Source: Rhodospirillaceae bacterium (GTDB lineage: Bacteria > Pseudomonadota > Alphaproteobacteria > SMXQ01). From it: 32,769 nucleotides of DNA. The DNA lies in the NCBI GenBank assembly GCA_947474495.1, contig CANJIM010000033.1, positions 1 through 32,769 on the forward strand, given 5' to 3'. Below, piece after piece: positions 6,079 to 16,940 of this stretch. The position numbers and the translations under genes are program-made. The notes under the pieces are model-generated. The model was not told the DNA's origin. It saw nothing but the letters and a program-made list of their open reading frames with translations, and did not search any database. The stretch's first letter is position 1; each line of letters opens with the position of its first letter.

Positions 6079-7380
6079 TTACTTCCCCTTGCGCACGTCC
6101 TTCACCGCGCTATCCACGCCGGACCAAGCTTTCTTGTCCGTGTAGCGGGCGCGTAGGAACTTCACCAGCGCGGTCATCTCGGCTTCCGAGAGTTGCGGGC
6201 CGAGGGCCGGCATCGAGCGGCCGAGCGCGCCGGTCGGCGGGCGGATGCCGTTCCAGATGGCATGGACGACGCTGCCGGGATCGGGGGCGTGGATCGAGCT
6301 TTGCAAGGCGAGCGGCACGCTGCCGCCGTTGTTGCGATGGCACTGCGCGCAGCGCTGCTCGAACACTTTCGCCCCGGCGGCGAATTCGGCCGGCACGGCC
6401 GGCGCCTCCGGGTTGCCCCATTCGCGTTTGACGGCGGCGGCGCGGGCGGCGGTTGCGTCGATCTTCGGCGCGCCGGTGCGCAGCGTTTCGACATAAGACG
6501 CGATGGCGAAGACGTCGATCTCGTTCTGGTTTTGCAGGGCGTTGACCACCGGGGTCATCGGGCCCGCCGCCATGCCATGGTTGGCATGCCAGCCGTCCAT
6601 CAGATAGACGACCAACTCCTGCTGGGTCCACGGCATCTGCGAGTAAGCATCCTTGTTGAGCGGCGGCGCGACCCAACCTTCGGCGAGACCGCCGCCGTAA
6701 GCCGGGCTGGTTTCCGCGCCCATCAGGTTGCGCGGCGTGTGGCAGGCGCCACAATGGCCGAGGCCTTCGACCAGATAGGCGCCCTCGTTCCACTGGGCGT
6801 CGCGCGTCGGATCGGGCTTGAACGGCGACTTGTCGAGGAACAGCGCCTTCCAGACATAGAGCGTCTGGCGGATGTTGAACGGGAAGGGCAGCTCGTTCTT
6901 GTGCGGCGCCTCCTTCACCGGCTGCACGCCGGCCATCAGGTAGGCATAGATCGCGTCGACGTCTTCGACCTTCACCTTGGTGAAATGGTCGTAGGGGAAG
7001 GCCGGATAGAGATGATTGCCCTTGCGGTCGACACCCTCTTTGAGGGCGCGGCGGAAGGCCTCCTTGGACCAGCCGCCGATGCCGGTATCGACGTCGGGCG
7101 TGATGTTGGTGGTGTAGATGGTGCCGAACGGCGTCGGCAGCGGCAGGTTGCCGGCGAACGGCTCGCCGTCCTCGCGCGTGTGGCAGGCGGTGCAGTCGCC
7201 GTAATTGGCGAGCACGCGGCCGCGATCGACCAGCGCCTGGTCGAAGCTGGCGGGGTCCGGCTTGGCGATGGCGGCGATCTCCGGCTGACGCGCCAAGAGG
7301 AACAGGCCGACGACGCCGACGATGGCGAGCACCACGGCGAGACCGAGCAGAGTCCAAGCCTTGTTGCGTTTTGTTCTCAT
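6079..7380 (-). CDS. membrane-anchored triheme cytochrome c (electron acceptor of a periplasmic dehydrogenase)
   Basis: This 433-residue protein should carry electrons from the molybdenum hydroxylase encoded divergently to the respiratory chain. It has an N-terminal hydrophobic anchor (residues 8-30) without an obvious cleavage site and three covalent heme sites: CTACH (63-67), CGACH (210-214) and CAQCH (344-348). The three-domain layout is that of the cytochrome subunit of membrane alcohol/aldehyde dehydrogenases and nicotinate-dehydrogenase-type enzymes. Met residues that may be axial ligands include those in [11 protein letters not shown] and GRSMPALGP. The gene is separated from the [2Fe-2S] subunit gene by a 202 bp shared promoter region, which suggests coordinated control. 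It faces the importer operon across a bidirectional terminator. Confidence 0.92.
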
Positions 7381-7406
7381 TGGAAGATCCCCTGCTGGTC
7401 GATCGC

Positions 7407-7428
7407 GTTATATCCGCCGCGATATAAC
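7407..7428. promoter_or_regulatory. perfect inverted repeat in the divergent promoter (candidate operator / paired -10 elements)
   Basis: GTTATATC (7407-7414) and GATATAAC (7421-7428) are exact inverted copies separated by six bases. Each arm, read outward, contains TATAAC, a good -10 match, so the dyad could be a repressor site, two back-to-back -10 boxes, or both. The left arm lies 27 bases upstream of the cytochrome start codon. Confidence 0.55.
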
Positions 7429-7460
7429 CGCTACGAGTGCTGCGGTTGCGACCGCATATA

Positions 7461-7481
7461 GTCCGGTAGAATCTACCAGAC
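7461..7481. promoter_or_regulatory. 21 bp near-perfect palindrome (candidate TetR/GntR-type operator)
   Basis: The left arm GTCCGGTAGA (7461-7470) and the right arm TCTACCAGAC (7472-7481) match at 9 of 10 pairs around a central A. Length, odd symmetry and position between two divergent catabolic genes fit an operator bound by a dimeric repressor. No regulator gene of that class lies next to it. Confidence 0.55.
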
Positions 7482-7582
7482 GAGCATTATTCTTAGGGCT
7501 ATTATTGCGAGAACAGCGTGAAGCTGGCAAGCGCCGCGGGGACAGGGCCCTCGATTGCGCGCATTCGGTGAAAGGGACCGCT

Positions 7583-8044
7583 ATGGAATTTTCGCTCACC
7601 ATCAATGGCAGCGTCCAGAAAGTGGACGTCGATCCGGAGACGCCGCTCCTCTGGGTGCTGCGCGAGAACGTCGGGCTGACCGGCACGAAATACGGCTGCG
7701 GCATCGCGCGCTGCGGCGCCTGCACCATTCACGTCGACGGCCAGGCAGCGAAGGCCTGCCAATATCCGGCGTCCGCCGCGGTCGGCAAGAAGATCACCAC
7801 CATCGAAGGCCTGTCGAAAGATAGCTCGCATCCGGTCCAGGTCGCCTGGATGGAAGTCGGCGTGCCGCAATGCGGTTATTGTCAAAGTGGGCAGATCATG
7901 GCGGCCTCCGCCCTGCTCGCCAAACGCAAGAAGCCGACCGAAGCGGAGATCGAGGCGGCCATGGCCGACAACCTCTGCCGCTGCGGCACGTACTTGAAGA
8001 TCAAAGAGGCGATCAATCGCGCCGCCAAGATCGAGCAGAGCTAG
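7583..8044 (+). CDS. [2Fe-2S] subunit of a molybdenum hydroxylase (isoquinoline 1-oxidoreductase alpha-like)
   Basis: This 153-residue protein carries the two iron-sulfur clusters that pass electrons from the molybdenum cofactor. The plant-type cluster uses Cys39, Cys44, Cys47 and Cys59 ([12 protein letters not shown]), and the second uses Cys97, Cys100, Cys132 and Cys134 (CGYC and LCRCG). The length and the GxGCGxxxCGAC form are those of IorA-type small subunits in the xanthine dehydrogenase family. ATG 7583 is chosen because AAAGGGA lies about seven bases upstream and the family N-terminus begins at MEFSLTING. The partner gene starts 11 bases after the stop, so the two are co-transcribed. 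There is no signal peptide; such subunits are known to be exported folded with the Tat-tagged large subunit. Confidence 0.95.
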
Positions 8045-8055
8045 GGGAGGCTGAC

Positions 8056-10260
8056 ATGACCGAACAGACCAAGCAGATTCTGTCGCGCCGCTCGTTCATT
8101 CAAGGCGCGGCCGCCGCCGGCGGCGGATTGATGATCGGCTTCCACATGCCGCTCGCCAATGCCGCCACCATCGGCCCCAACCCGCAATCGCTGACCACCG
8201 CCGTCGGCACCGAGATCAACGCCTGGCTCGTCATCGACCGCGACAACACGGTGACGATCCGCATCCCGCACACCGAGATGGGCCAGGGCGGCATCACCTC
8301 GGTCGCGCTGCTGATCGCCGAAGAGCTGAACGTCGAATGGTCGAAGATCAAGACCGAGTTCGCCGACGCCAACCGGCATTTGCGCAACAACAAAGAATAC
8401 AAGGTGATGAGCACGCACGGCTCGCAGCTCGTGCGGTTGCAGCATCCGCATCTGATGCAGGCCGGCGCGTCGGCGCGCGAGCGCCTGAAGCAGGCGGCGG
8501 CGACCGCCTGGGGTGTCGACCGTTCGAAGGTCGAGGCCAAGCTCGGCGTGCTGACCTCGGGCAGCCACACCGGCACCTACGGCGAATTCGTCGACGCCGC
8601 CGCGACGGTGAAGCTCGACAAGGAGCCGGCGATCAACACCGACCCCACCAAATGGTGGCTGCTCGGCAAAGGCACCATGCGGCTCGACATCCCCAACAAG
8701 GTCAACGGCAGCGCGAAATATGCCATGGACACGAAAGTGCCCGGCATGGTTTACGCCGCCGTCAAGGCGAGCCCGGTGCCGTGGGGCACGCTGAAAAGCT
8801 TCGATGACAGCGCCATCAAGAAGCGGCCCGGTTATGTCGGCACGGTGCAGCTGAAAGCGGTGCCCGGCAAGCGCGGCCAGCCCGACATGCAAGACGCGAT
8901 CGCCGTGGTGTTCGACAGCTGGTATCGCGCCAAGACCGCGCTCGATCTCGTCAAGGTCGAGTGGGACTTCGGCGAGAGCGGCAAGACAAGCAGCGCCCAA
9001 TACTATGTGGAGGGTCGCAAACTGCTCGATCAGACCGGTCAGTTGACCGGCAAGGGCGATCCCCGCGCCGCCGAGATCATCGCCGCCGCCAGCAAGGTGG
9101 TGACGGCGCAGTACGAACGTCCGTTCGAGACCCATGCGCGCATGGAGCCGATCAACGCCACCGTGCATGTGCAGGCCGATCGCGTCGACGTCTGGTCGCC
9201 GACGCAGGACCAGTCTGCCGCCATCACCATCGTCGCCGAGCAGCTCGGCCGCGACGCCAAGGACATCTACGCCCACACGATGTTCCTCGGCGGCGGCTTC
9301 GGCGGCAACGGCGGCGGCGGCACCGGCGTCACCAAACAGGCGGCCGAAATCTCCAAGCAGCTCGGCAAGCCGGTGAAGGTGATCTGGAGCCGCGAGGAAG
9401 ACCTGGCGCAGGACAAGCAGCGCCCGCTGGCGCTGGCCAAGCTGACCGCATCGCTTGGTGAAGACGGCCTACCGACCGCGCTGTTCACGCGCGGCGCCTG
9501 GTTCACACAGGACGGCATCAACAACTTCGGCAGCGCCACGGCGGACTACGGCATCTCCAACATGTCGTACAACTTCCCGGTCCGCCATCACGAGCGCCAC
9601 AACGCCAAGACGCACATTCCGGGCTCGACGCATCGCGCGCCGGGCGCCAACCAGATGGGCTTCATGGCCGAGAGTTTCATCGACGAGATCGCCATCGCCG
9701 GCGGCTGGAATCCGCTCGACTGGCGCCTCAAGATGACCGAGGGGCAGGACGACTATCAGCTCGTCTTGCAGACCTTGAAGGACAAGGCCGGCTTCCGCAC
9801 TGACCTGCCGAAGGGTCAGGGCATGGGCATCGGCGTTGTCGAATCGCACGGCACCATCGCCGCGGCCTGCGCCACGGTGAACGTCAGCCGGCGCGGCCGC
9901 CTGACCATCGAGAAGCTGCTCGTCGTGCTCGACGCCGGCCATGTGATCAATCCGCATGCCGCCGCCGAGCAATGCGAAGGCTCGGTCTGCTGGGAATTGT
10001 CGCATGCCTGGATGGGCGGCCTCGAGATGGAGAACGGCCGCTTCATCAACACCAACTTCGACAGCTACAACCTGCTGCGCATCGACCAGATGCCCGAGGT
10101 CGAGACGATCTTCGCCTCGTCCGGCGGCACAAAGTGGGGCGGTCTCGGCGAGCCCGCCGGCCCGCCGGCGCCGCCGGCGGTCGCCAACGCGATCTGGTAC
10201 GCGACCGGCAAGCGCATCCGCTCGACGCCGTTCCGCCAGCATGATCTGAGCTGGACCTAA
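8056..10260 (+). CDS. molybdopterin-binding subunit of a periplasmic molybdenum hydroxylase (isoquinoline 1-oxidoreductase beta-like)
   Basis: This 734-residue subunit holds the molybdenum-cytosine-dinucleotide site and hydroxylates an N-heteroaromatic ring or an aldehyde with water as oxygen source. It starts with a Tat signal (SRRSFIQGAAAAGG, twin Arg 11-12) ending near ANA. Cofactor-binding motifs are PHTEMGQGG (71-79) and GGGFGG (from about residue 412). Glu699 in GLGEPAG matches the essential active-site glutamate of the xanthine dehydrogenase family. The start at 8056 has GGGGAGG five bases upstream. The single-chain form with a separate small [2Fe-2S] subunit and no FAD subunit is the IorAB architecture, which uses a cytochrome as acceptor, consistent with the divergent cytochrome gene. 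The substrate is not predictable: isoquinoline, nicotinate and aldehyde enzymes share this layout. Confidence 0.93.
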   Translation: MTEQTKQILSRRSFIQGAAAAGGGLMIGFHMPLANAATIGPNPQSLTTAVGTEINAWLVIDRDNTVTIRIPHTEMGQGGITSVALLIAEELNVEWSKIKTEFADANRHLRNNKEYKVMSTHGSQLVRLQHPHLMQAGASARERLKQAAATAWGVDRSKVEAKLGVLTSGSHTGTYGEFVDAAATVKLDKEPAINTDPTKWWLLGKGTMRLDIPNKVNGSAKYAMDTKVPGMVYAAVKASPVPWGTLKSFDDSAIKKRPGYVGTVQLKAVPGKRGQPDMQDAIAVVFDSWYRAKTALDLVKVEWDFGESGKTSSAQYYVEGRKLLDQTGQLTGKGDPRAAEIIAAASKVVTAQYERPFETHARMEPINATVHVQADRVDVWSPTQDQSAAITIVAEQLGRDAKDIYAHTMFLGGGFGGNGGGGTGVTKQAAEISKQLGKPVKVIWSREEDLAQDKQRPLALAKLTASLGEDGLPTALFTRGAWFTQDGINNFGSATADYGISNMSYNFPVRHHERHNAKTHIPGSTHRAPGANQMGFMAESFIDEIAIAGGWNPLDWRLKMTEGQDDYQLVLQTLKDKAGFRTDLPKGQGMGIGVVESHGTIAAACATVNVSRRGRLTIEKLLVVLDAGHVINPHAAAEQCEGSVCWELSHAWMGGLEMENGRFINTNFDSYNLLRIDQMPEVETIFASSGGTKWGGLGEPAGPPAPPAVANAIWYATGKRIRSTPFRQHDLSWT

Positions 10261-10332: not shown

Positions 10333-10947
10333 CTAACGGGTCGGATAGCGCTTGTCGTCGCTGACAGTGACCGCCTTGGTCGACAGCTTGCCGTCCTTAG
10401 TGGCGACGTTCGACATCGAGACCGCAGCGCCCGGCTTGAGCAGGTCCTTGCTGCCGTCCTCAATGCGCACGATGACGGCGTCGGGCGGCACGGCGATCTC
10501 ATAGTTCTGGCCGTTGGTGGTCAGCGTCAGCTTGCCGGGGCCCTGGCCGGCGACGACCATGGTGGCCGGCGCGTTGGTCATGGTGGCGTTGCTGTCCGCA
10601 CCCCAGGCGCCGTGGCGCTCGCTGGCCCGCGTGTTGGCGGGAAAGACCACGACCTGCATCGCCTTCATGACGCCCTTGTCGTCGGGCAGCGAAGCGCCGA
10701 CGCCGACGAAGGTGCCGGGCTTGATGTCGCCGACTTTGATGGCGACCGCATGGCTGATCGTGGTGCCGCTCTCCAGCGCGACGTCGGCGGTCTTGCCGTC
10801 GTCGCTTTTGACGGTGAGCATATCGCCGGAGACTTTCGTCACTTCGCCGCGCAGACGGCCGGCCTCTTGGGCGAGGGCGGGCGTGAACGCCGCGGCCGTC
10901 ATTGCGGCGGCGGCAAAGGTTGCGGCGAGGCCGCGCACAATGGTCAT
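10333..10947 (-). CDS. exported protein of unknown function (DUF5666-like)
   Basis: This 204-residue protein has a clear Sec signal peptide (LAATFAAAAMTAAAFTPALA, cut before QEAG). The mature part seems to hold two similar beta-rich units: LRGEVTKVSGDMLTVKSDDGK with ESGTTI, and later GQGPGKLTLTTNGQN with PPDAVIVRIED. That is the look of small OB- or DUF5666-type domains, in which a value, a charge and a permeability-like loop repeat. ATG 10947 is supported by AGGGGAGAG upstream. No catalytic motif can be identified. It is flanked by two terminators, so it is a single-gene unit and not clearly linked to the oxidation genes around it. Confidence 0.75.
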   Translation of the reverse strand: MTIVRGLAATFAAAAMTAAAFTPALAQEAGRLRGEVTKVSGDMLTVKSDDGKTADVALESGTTISHAVAIKVGDIKPGTFVGVGASLPDDKGVMKAMQVVVFPANTRASERHGAWGADSNATMTNAPATMVVAGQGPGKLTLTTNGQNYEIAVPPDAVIVRIEDGSKDLLKPGAAVSMSNVATKDGKLSTKAVTVSDDKRYPTR

Positions 10948-11109: not shown

Positions 11110-11793
11110 TTAGACGATGGTCACGTTCAGGTCGGTCAGGCCGTCGATGTGGCCTTCGAGCTTGTCGCCCTTGACCACCGGCGCGACGCCTTCCGGCGTG
11201 CCCATGAAAATGATGTCGCCGGCGCCGAGCGGGATCGATTCCGAGAGATAGGAGATCGTGTCGGCGACATTCCAAATCATGTCGGCGAGATCGCTGGTCT
11301 GCTTGACGGTGCCGTTGACCTTCACCCAGATCGCGCCCTTGGTCGGGTCCTTGAACTTGGCGGCGGGGGTCAGCTCGGCGCAGGGGCCCGAATGCTCGAA
11401 GCTCTTGCCGAGCTCCCAGGGGCGCTGCAGCTTCTTCGCCGCGTTCTGCAGATCGCGGCGCGTCATGTCGAGGCCGACGGCATAGCCGAACACATGATCG
11501 AGTGCCTTGGCCGCCGGGATATTGGCGCCGCCGGACTTCAGCGCGACGACCAGTTCGATTTCATGCTGGTAGTCGGATGTCTGCGGCGGGTAGGGGATGG
11601 CGAAGCCGTTCGGCACGATGGCGTCGGTCGGCTTCATGAAGAAGAACGGCGGCTCGCGGTTCGGGTCATGGCCCATTTCGCGGGCGTGGGCGGCATAGTT
11701 GCGGCCGACGCAGTACACGCGGCGCACGGGAAATTCACCGCCGCCGACGACGGGGATGGTGGTGATGGCGGGAGCGGGGATAACGAGGCTCAT
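11110..11793 (-). CDS. fumarylacetoacetate hydrolase family enzyme (fumarylpyruvate hydrolase-like)
   Basis: This 227-residue cytoplasmic enzyme probably hydrolyses a beta-diketo acid, the last C-C cleavage of aromatic ring degradation. Metal ligands expected in the family are visible: Glu78 and Glu80 in QHEIEL and Asp109 in VGLDMTRRD. Other family blocks are CVGRNYAAHAREMG, FFMKPTDAI, and GTPEGVAPVVKGD near the end. The short form, with only the catalytic domain, matches fumarylpyruvate hydrolases and acylpyruvases (about 230 residues) rather than full fumarylacetoacetase. ATG 11793 has GGAG seven bases upstream; an upstream ATG at 11850 adds an unrelated tail. A LysR gene is transcribed divergently 172 bp away and is the likely regulator. 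Confidence 0.92.
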   Translation of the reverse strand: MSLVIPAPAITTIPVVGGGEFPVRRVYCVGRNYAAHAREMGHDPNREPPFFFMKPTDAIVPNGFAIPYPPQTSDYQHEIELVVALKSGGANIPAAKALDHVFGYAVGLDMTRRDLQNAAKKLQRPWELGKSFEHSGPCAELTPAAKFKDPTKGAIWVKVNGTVKQTSDLADMIWNVADTISYLSESIPLGAGDIIFMGTPEGVAPVVKGDKLEGHIDGLTDLNVTIV

Positions 11794-11869
11794 GGCAAAC
11801 TCCGATCGGCTGTCTTCTCTGGGAGAACAATGGCACATACCGCGCCCCATTGCGTCATGGGTTTGCGGC

Positions 11870-11965: not shown

Positions 11966-12886
11966 GTGGACCTTCGTCAATTCCGCTATTTCGTCGCCGT
12001 CGCGGAAGAGCTGCATTTCAGCCGTGCCGCCGAACGGCTGCATATCGGCCAGCCGCCGCTCAGCCTGCAGATTCAGGCCATTGAGCAAGAGCTTGGCGTC
12101 ATGCTGCTCAAGCGCAGCCGCCGCCGGGTCGAGCTGACCGAGGCGGGCCGCGTGTTCCTGGTCGAAGCGCGCGCCGCGCTGGCCCAAGCCGCCCATGCCA
12201 TCGATACGGCGAAACGGGCCGCCAGCGGCCATGTCGGCAAGCTGTCGGTCAGCTTCACCACCTCGGCGCCGCTGACCTCCGTCTTCACCCGAGCGGTGCG
12301 CGCCTATCACATGGCCTATCCGGACGTGCAGCTGCGCCTGTCGATCGCCACGTCGCAGAACACCATCGACATGCTGGCGCTCGGCAAGCTCGATGCCGGG
12401 CTGATTCGCCCTGCGGCGCAGGCTGTCATGCCGTCCGGGCTGACGGCGATCCCGGTGTTTCAGGAGCGCCTGATGCTGGTCCTGCCGGCCGATCACCCGC
12501 TCGCCGACCTCAAGGTGCCGGTGCCGATCGAGGCTCTGGCCAACGAGCGCTTCGTGCTGCGGCCGCGTGGCTCGGGCGCTGGGTTTTACGAGCAGGTGTT
12601 CCAGATCTGCGCCCAGGCCGGCTTCACGCCCAACGTGGTGCAGGACGCGGCGGAAACCACCACCACCCTGGGCCTGGTCGCCGCCGGCCTTGGCCTCACC
12701 GTGATGCCGGCCTCGGTGGCGTCGATTCAGCTGGAAAATGTCGTCTGGCGGGAATTGGCGGTCGGCGATGCCGCCGTCACGTCGCTCTTGCTTGTCTACA
12801 ACGAAGCGAGCGACAATGCCCAACAGCGCGATCACTTCATCCGCACCGTGCGCGAGATCGCCGCGCAGGTCGCAAGCGGACGTTAA
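11966..12886 (+). CDS. LysR-type transcriptional regulator
   Basis: This 306-residue regulator has the usual N-terminal winged helix (LRQFRYFVAVAEELHFSRAA, then LHIGQPPLSLQIQAIEQELG, residues 2 to about 46) and a C-terminal periplasmic-binding-like effector domain. The length is typical. It starts with GTG at 11966; the family N-terminus begins exactly there, and GAGGCAGG lies upstream. It is divergent from the FAH-family gene and probably controls that gene, and perhaps its own. The effector domain resembles the CatM/BenM aromatic-acid subgroup in general layout, but the ligand cannot be read from sequence. Confidence 0.95.
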   Translation: MDLRQFRYFVAVAEELHFSRAAERLHIGQPPLSLQIQAIEQELGVMLLKRSRRRVELTEAGRVFLVEARAALAQAAHAIDTAKRAASGHVGKLSVSFTTSAPLTSVFTRAVRAYHMAYPDVQLRLSIATSQNTIDMLALGKLDAGLIRPAAQAVMPSGLTAIPVFQERLMLVLPADHPLADLKVPVPIEALANERFVLRPRGSGAGFYEQVFQICAQAGFTPNVVQDAAETTTTLGLVAAGLGLTVMPASVASIQLENVVWRELAVGDAAVTSLLLVYNEASDNAQQRDHFIRTVREIAAQVASGR

Positions 12887-15485: not shown

Positions 15486-15521
15486 TCTAAGAGTTGCCGT
15501 CGCTAGAGTTGGAGAAGCCGC

Positions 15522-16805
15522 ATGGTTACCAAAGAGCAAAACGATCTATTGACGCTGACCGGTCCCGACACGCCGATGGGCAAAGCCTTTCGCCGCTACT
15601 GGATCCCAGCATTGATGTCGAGCGAGCTGCCGGAAAATGATTGTCCGCCGGTCCGCGTCTCCTTGCTTGGCGAAAAGCTCATCGCGTTTCGCGACAGCAG
15701 CGGCAAGCTTGGCCTGATCGACGAATTCTGCGCGCATCGCGGCGTCTCCCTGTGGTTCGGTCGCAACGAGCAGAACGGCATTCGCTGCCCGTACCATGGC
15801 TGGAAATACGACACGACCGGCCAATGCGTTGAATTGCCGTCCGAGCCGGTCGAAAGCGGTTTCTGCCAGAAGATCAAGCTGACCTCCTACCCGGTGGTCG
15901 AGAAGGGCAATGTGATCTGGGCCTATATGGGTCCCAAGGAGCTGATGCCCGATCCGCCGTCATTCGAATGGACCGATCTGCCGAAGGAGAACGTGTTCAT
16001 CTCCAAGCGCTGGCAGGAAACCAACTATCTGCAGGCGGTCGAGGGCGGCATCGATTCGAGCCACGTCTCGTTCCTGCATAGCGGCGAGTTGAATAACGAT
16101 CCGCTGCACCGTAATACGCAAGGCGCCAAGTTCGCCAAGTCGACCAAGACGAACTTCACGATGATCGAGTCGGATGCCGGCATGATCATCGGGGCGCAGC
16201 GCGATGCCGATCCCGGCAACCATTATTGGCGCGTCACCCAATGGATGATGCCTTGGTACACGCTGATCCCGCCCTACGGCGGCGGTCACGCGCTCAACGG
16301 CCATGCCTGGGTGCCAATGGATGACGGCAACTGCATGGCGTGGACCTTCACCTTCCATCCGCTGCGCGCGCTCACCGATTTCGAGATCGAGACGATGAAG
16401 GCGGGTGGCGGCGTGCATGTCGATCTCATCCCCGGCACGTTCCGTCCGGTGGCGAACCGCGACAACGACTACCTGATGGACCGCGCGCTACAGAAGAGCG
16501 GCCGGCATTACAGCGGCGTGCGCACGCTGGCTATCCAGGACGCCTCGGTGCAGGAAAGCATCGGTGCCATCGCCGACCGCACCAAGGAAAACCTCGTCTC
16601 GACCGACAATCCGATCATCATGGCGCGGCGCATCCTGACCAAGGCGGCTGCGGCGGCGGAAAAGGGCGGTCAATTGCCTGGGCTGACGGCCGAGAGTCAG
16701 CGGGTGCGCTCCGCATCCTTCATTTTGCCGGCCGATGGCGGCTTCAAAACCAAGGTCGTGGACGCCGTCAAGGTCCGCGAAGGGGAAGCCCATGTGGCGG
16801 TGTAA
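15522..16805 (+). CDS. Rieske non-heme iron oxygenase, alpha subunit (phthalate dioxygenase-like)
   Basis: This 427-residue enzyme inserts oxygen into an aromatic or heteroaromatic substrate, using a Rieske cluster and a mononuclear iron. Cluster ligands are Cys70, His72, Cys89 and His92 (CAHRGVSLWFG and CPYHGW, 16 residues between). The iron site shows GGIDSSHVSFLH with Asp178 as bridge and His181/His186 as ligands, and the third ligand is likely the Asp of AIQDASVQESIG. This last block and the length are those of phthalate 4,5-dioxygenase / 3-chlorobenzoate-type alpha-only oxygenases. A strong GGAGAAG ribosome site precedes ATG 15522. A dedicated reductase gene is not found in the window; a Rieske ferredoxin gene lies at 18415. 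Confidence 0.95.
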   Translation: MVTKEQNDLLTLTGPDTPMGKAFRRYWIPALMSSELPENDCPPVRVSLLGEKLIAFRDSSGKLGLIDEFCAHRGVSLWFGRNEQNGIRCPYHGWKYDTTGQCVELPSEPVESGFCQKIKLTSYPVVEKGNVIWAYMGPKELMPDPPSFEWTDLPKENVFISKRWQETNYLQAVEGGIDSSHVSFLHSGELNNDPLHRNTQGAKFAKSTKTNFTMIESDAGMIIGAQRDADPGNHYWRVTQWMMPWYTLIPPYGGGHALNGHAWVPMDDGNCMAWTFTFHPLRALTDFEIETMKAGGGVHVDLIPGTFRPVANRDNDYLMDRALQKSGRHYSGVRTLAIQDASVQESIGAIADRTKENLVSTDNPIIMARRILTKAAAAAEKGGQLPGLTAESQRVRSASFILPADGGFKTKVVDAVKVREGEAHVAV

Positions 16806-16940
16806 CCGCCACCCCCATGACCGCGCATCATGCGTTCCGGCCGTAAAACTCGTTTGTGGCCGGGGCGCAGCGCGCTCAGGCTCTGGCATGTCTTCGTACC
16901 GCCTGCGTCCCATCCGTGAACGCCAGGACTACCGCGATAA

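Follow-up and report, generated by a model that had tools for sequence, protein, structure and literature searches.

A predicted ModE-type Mo-box in the divergent intergenic region of an alphaproteobacterial molybdenum hydroxylase locus

The window analysed here, a stretch of 32,769 nucleotides from a Rhodospirillaceae bacterium, carries a molybdenum hydroxylase locus with two divergent arms. On the minus strand, positions 6079-7380 encode a 433-aa c-type cytochrome (Pfam Cytochrom_C, E=2e-20), likely the electron acceptor subunit. On the plus strand, positions 7583-8044 encode the 153-aa [2Fe-2S] subunit of a xanthine-oxidase-family enzyme (Pfam Fer2_2, E=9e-29, and Fer2), followed by the 734-aa molybdopterin-binding large subunit (8056-10260; Pfam MoCoBD_1/MoCoBD_2), which bears a Tat signal (TIGR01409). 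The gap from the cytochrome ATG at 7380 to the [2Fe-2S] start codon at 7583 spans 202 bp (7381-7582), as an earlier sequence-only reading had stated. That reading was also right that no regulator gene touches the gap: the nearest one encodes a LysR-type protein on the plus strand (11966-12886; Pfam LysR_substrate, E=2e-41, and HTH_1), 4.4 kb downstream and divergent from a minus-strand FAH-family hydrolase gene (11110-11850). Just past the large subunit gene, on the opposite strand, lies a 204-aa ORF (10333-10947) with no NCBIfam match beyond a weak one (ExtJ, E=6e-7, below the cut-off). Further along, in a stretch that is otherwise syntenic, the congener lacks a Rieske oxygenase gene (LigXa-like, 15522-16805); blastn blocks between the two end at 15486 and restart at 16813. 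A scan of 7200-7800 against all Rfam families, including any molybdenum-cofactor riboswitch model, gave nothing up to E=1, and a terminator scan found none.

Both inverted repeats previously described in the gap are present. Dyad 1 (7407-7428) consists of exact 8+8 arms, GTTATATC/GATATAAC, around a 6-base spacer, and contains TATAAC on both strands; dyad 2 (7461-7481, GTCCGGTAGAATCTACCAGAC) is a 21-bp palindrome matching at 9 of 10 pairs. In 2000 dinucleotide-preserving shuffles of the 202-bp gap, a perfect 8+8 dyad (spacer 0-12) appeared in 5.6%, a 9/10 dyad (spacer 0-8) in 6.7%, and both together in 2.8%. Either dyad is only mildly unusual and symmetry alone is weak evidence; the significance of dyad 1 comes from the identity of its sequence.

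Taken with its flanks (7406-7429, CGTTATATccgccgcgATATAACC), dyad 1 reads CGTTATAT-N8-ATATAACC, agreeing with 13 of the 14 specified bases of CGnTATAT-N8-ATATAnCG at the correct spacing. This core is a pattern independent of dyad 1, drawn from the E. coli-type ModE consensus, ATCGNTATATA-N6-TATATANCGAT, as given in PMC545781, citing Studholme and Pau (2003). When the 3.0-Mb genome was searched with the core at up to 1 mismatch, only three sites were found, all of them in front of molybdenum genes: one without mismatches on contig C15 (position 22356), before a [2Fe-2S]/MoCo hydroxylase; one with 1 mismatch on contig C21 (position 1935), 20 bp before modA; and dyad 1 itself, with 1 mismatch, 25 bp before the cytochrome start codon. 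The motif statistics rest on control-pattern counts in genome searches (36 for the control at up to 3 mismatches), and by our estimate from the scaled control about 0.15 such sites are expected per genome and about 1e-5 for the window gap. Dyad 1 used as the query led to two close matches, C15:25127 with 1 mismatch and C21:1936 with 2. The former stands 11 bp before xdhC, which is followed by mocA-like, [2Fe-2S] and molybdopterin-binding genes, and the latter 20 bp before the modA of modABC, after which a ModE-like gene follows on the opposite strand. The xdhC-mocA-[2Fe-2S]-MoCo cluster on C15 holds two Mo-boxes (L148:5357-5380 and 8127-8150), one before xdhC and the other in the intergenic space preceding the [2Fe-2S] gene.

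The same motif recurs at molybdenum genes elsewhere in the class. In the congener (G001) it occurs twice before modA, once before xdhC, where the 22-bp site is identical to that of the window's genome, and, with 2 mismatches, before the second hydroxylase. In G391, whose locus L036 holds the closest non-congener ortholog, sites lie beside modB/modC and before xdhC. Across 289 alphaproteobacterial genomes the core was matched exactly 22 times, versus 3 for the reversed control. Among 18 exact-match loci checked in genomes other than the window's and its congener's, 12 adjoin modA, modB or modE, and one further locus (L190) precedes an ORF that resembles MoaA, as judged by eye. In the congener, the upstream modA Mo-box forms the middle of a much longer near-perfect inverted repeat (L178:1120-1190, contig C143). 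By eye, the arms of this repeat measure ~23 nt (CAGCAAGCGGCCAAGCGTnATAT), far more than ModE requires, and it may represent a hairpin or a mobile palindrome.

The ModE-like gene of the window's genome (C21:4638-4889) adjoins modABC on another contig than the window. Its 146-aa product matches TIGR00637 (E=1.4e-24, at 87 bits below the curated cut-off of 98.5) and PDB 2ijl (E=4e-29), and its only domain matches are HTH_1/ModE_repress. A full-length ModE of the E. coli type combines a winged-helix with C-terminal TOBE/Mop domains; the domain search detected no molybdate-binding TOBE/Mop domain in this protein, and it is therefore named here a short ModE-like repressor. DNA-binding-only ModE proteins are noted in PMC545781, with their sensing mechanism described as unclear. 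This genome thus has the motif with its spacing, a cognate gene for the regulator, and further copies of the motif before modA and before a second hydroxylase/maturation cluster. Dyad 1 is very probably a ModE-type Mo-box, a grading that does not extend to the sign of regulation, and would be an element of a familiar type with a new target. Together, the Mo-box match, the ModE-like gene and the recurrence of the motif at molybdenum genes point to a ModE encoded elsewhere as its probable regulator, in keeping with the earlier proposal that dyad 1 is a regulator site controlled from elsewhere.

The picture at the window locus itself is different. The divergent gene arrangement is kept in G001, the only congener, and in L036, L037 and L038, which represent three less closely related species, but none of the four carries the dyad 1 site in its orthologous gap. 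Positions 7406-7429 share 12 of 24 bases with the congener, with indels, whereas a 71-bp block of the intergenic region (7471-7541) is identical at 66 of 71 positions; in the three genes, 15-20% of the fourfold sites differ. Parts of this block are recognisable in L036 and L037. A search of the gap as DNA against 385 genomes of the class recovered, beyond short chance matches, only the congener. Of the genomes compared, none but the window's has the site at this locus, and the use of dyad 1 here therefore appears to be lineage-specific, the site having been either gained in this lineage or lost elsewhere. The sequence-only reading had set conservation in close relatives beforehand as a refuting test, and neither dyad is conserved at the window locus; the dyad 1 motif is nevertheless kept at its other targets.

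The absence of the site from the four relatives lowers confidence in its function at this locus, and favours the view that dyad 1 is a chance likeness to a Mo-box, or a decayed non-functional site, that does not regulate the locus. The frequency of perfect 8+8 dyads in the shuffled gaps (5.6%) speaks in the same direction. This explanation is nonetheless unlikely, given that dyad 1 is one of only three genomic matches at up to 1 mismatch, all before molybdenum genes, and that about 0.15 were expected per genome and about 1e-5 for the gap.

A genome-wide search had been proposed for both motifs. In it the dyad 2 core, GGTAGANTCTACC, is not enriched, with 16 matches versus 32 for the control at up to 2 mismatches. 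A second regulator, such as the LysR-type protein encoded at 11966-12886, could have its operator here, as the palindrome (9/10) borders the conserved block that carries the promoter, the LysR gene lies inside the stretch syntenic with the congener, and a 1-mismatch copy of the core occurs in one other intergenic region (C30:35641-35653; L146:1501-1513). The latter copy precedes a solute-binding-protein-like gene. However, besides the lack of enrichment, no pair with the LysR signature T-N11-A is found in 7461-7481, and in the congener the left arm is kept at only 6 of 10 positions and pairing falls to 7/10, while the right arm, which belongs to the 71-bp block, is identical at 11 of 11. The second operator envisaged by the sequence-only reading is thus quite improbable, and dyad 2 most likely owes its symmetry to chance, lying as it does on the border of that block.

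The candidate promoter of the cytochrome gene that is conserved sits in that block and not in the dyads. It is a minus-strand sigma-70-type promoter, TTGCCA-18-AATAAT (7530-7501), the best-scoring in the gap (12.1), and its counterpart is the top minus-strand candidate at the same position in G001, L036 and L037. No conserved promoter toward the [2Fe-2S] gene was found when the gap was compared with its relatives; TATTAT (7500-7505) is a candidate -10 only in that direction. A sigma-54 reading of the conserved TGGCAAG (7525-7531) was considered, rpoN being present in the genome, and was not adopted: its -12 bases, GCGG, misfit TTGC in both the window and G001, and the minus-strand promoter that is conserved has TGGCAA as its -35. 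That dyad 1 is instead a bidirectional promoter, with symmetric TATAAC elements as the -10 of both genes, is very unlikely: TATAAC does occur on both strands, and the upstream Mo-box arm overlies a plausible -10 at modA (TTGGCG-17-TATCCT) and xdhC (TTGGAT-17-TATATT), but at the window locus the best -35 partners score only 7.1 and 5.6 against the 12.1 of the sole conserved candidate, and no relative with the divergent arrangement has the dyad.

In the reading that we prefer, the short ModE-like protein encoded beside modABC very probably binds dyad 1, and this binding would make both divergent arms, the cytochrome gene and the [2Fe-2S]/molybdopterin hydroxylase genes, molybdate-responsive. Against this reading count the missing site in the four relatives, the sub-threshold TIGR00637 score of the ModE-like protein and its lack of a detectable TOBE/Mop domain, and the want of a good -35 placed 17 bp before the Mo-box arm, a spacing that modA and xdhC do show. 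Binding, its sign and its importance at this locus are inferred from sequence. Repression toward the cytochrome gene when molybdate is plentiful has about an even chance, and is favoured because the distance of 25 bp to the cytochrome start resembles the 20 bp at modA and the 11 bp at xdhC. Alternatively, counted from a plausible [2Fe-2S] start near 7512, the site lies near -95 and could from there activate the enzyme genes, a possibility on the unlikely side. Under the preferred reading, a molybdenum-using enzyme would probably be tied to molybdenum supply. More tentatively, and with odds that we place somewhat below even, a ModE-like repressor without a molybdate-binding domain may have captured the divergent promoter of an exported molybdenum hydroxylase and its cytochrome in the window lineage only, via a newly arisen Mo-box in the leader of the cytochrome gene. 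If so, the capture would adjust both the electron-acceptor supply and the enzyme to molybdenum. The preferred reading gives an anonymous palindrome a role that can be tested, connecting a molybdenum hydroxylase with the molybdenum supply of an alphaproteobacterium that is known here from its genome only, and it yields a small, checkable set of predicted targets (modABC, xdhC-mocA and two hydroxylases) for a short ModE lacking the usual metal-binding domain.

Compared with the E. coli-type ModE site, as described in PMC545781, dyad 1 has the core sequence, symmetry and spacing in common, and the window's genome likewise has sites before modABC and molybdoenzyme genes. In contrast, the outer ATC/GAT is not conserved, the predicted target is a divergent cytochrome and [2Fe-2S]-MoCo hydroxylase pair, and the site is lineage-specific at this locus. 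In Rhodobacter capsulatus, Mo-boxes are bound by MopA/MopB (PMC6925177); these alphaproteobacterial ModE-like repressors acting at Mo-boxes, including one at a mod operon, offer a second parallel; the regulator of the window's genome differs from MopA/MopB in being short, with a DNA-binding domain only, and its predicted targets differ as well. Its closest solved relative, PDB 2ijl, is likewise short, at 135 aa.
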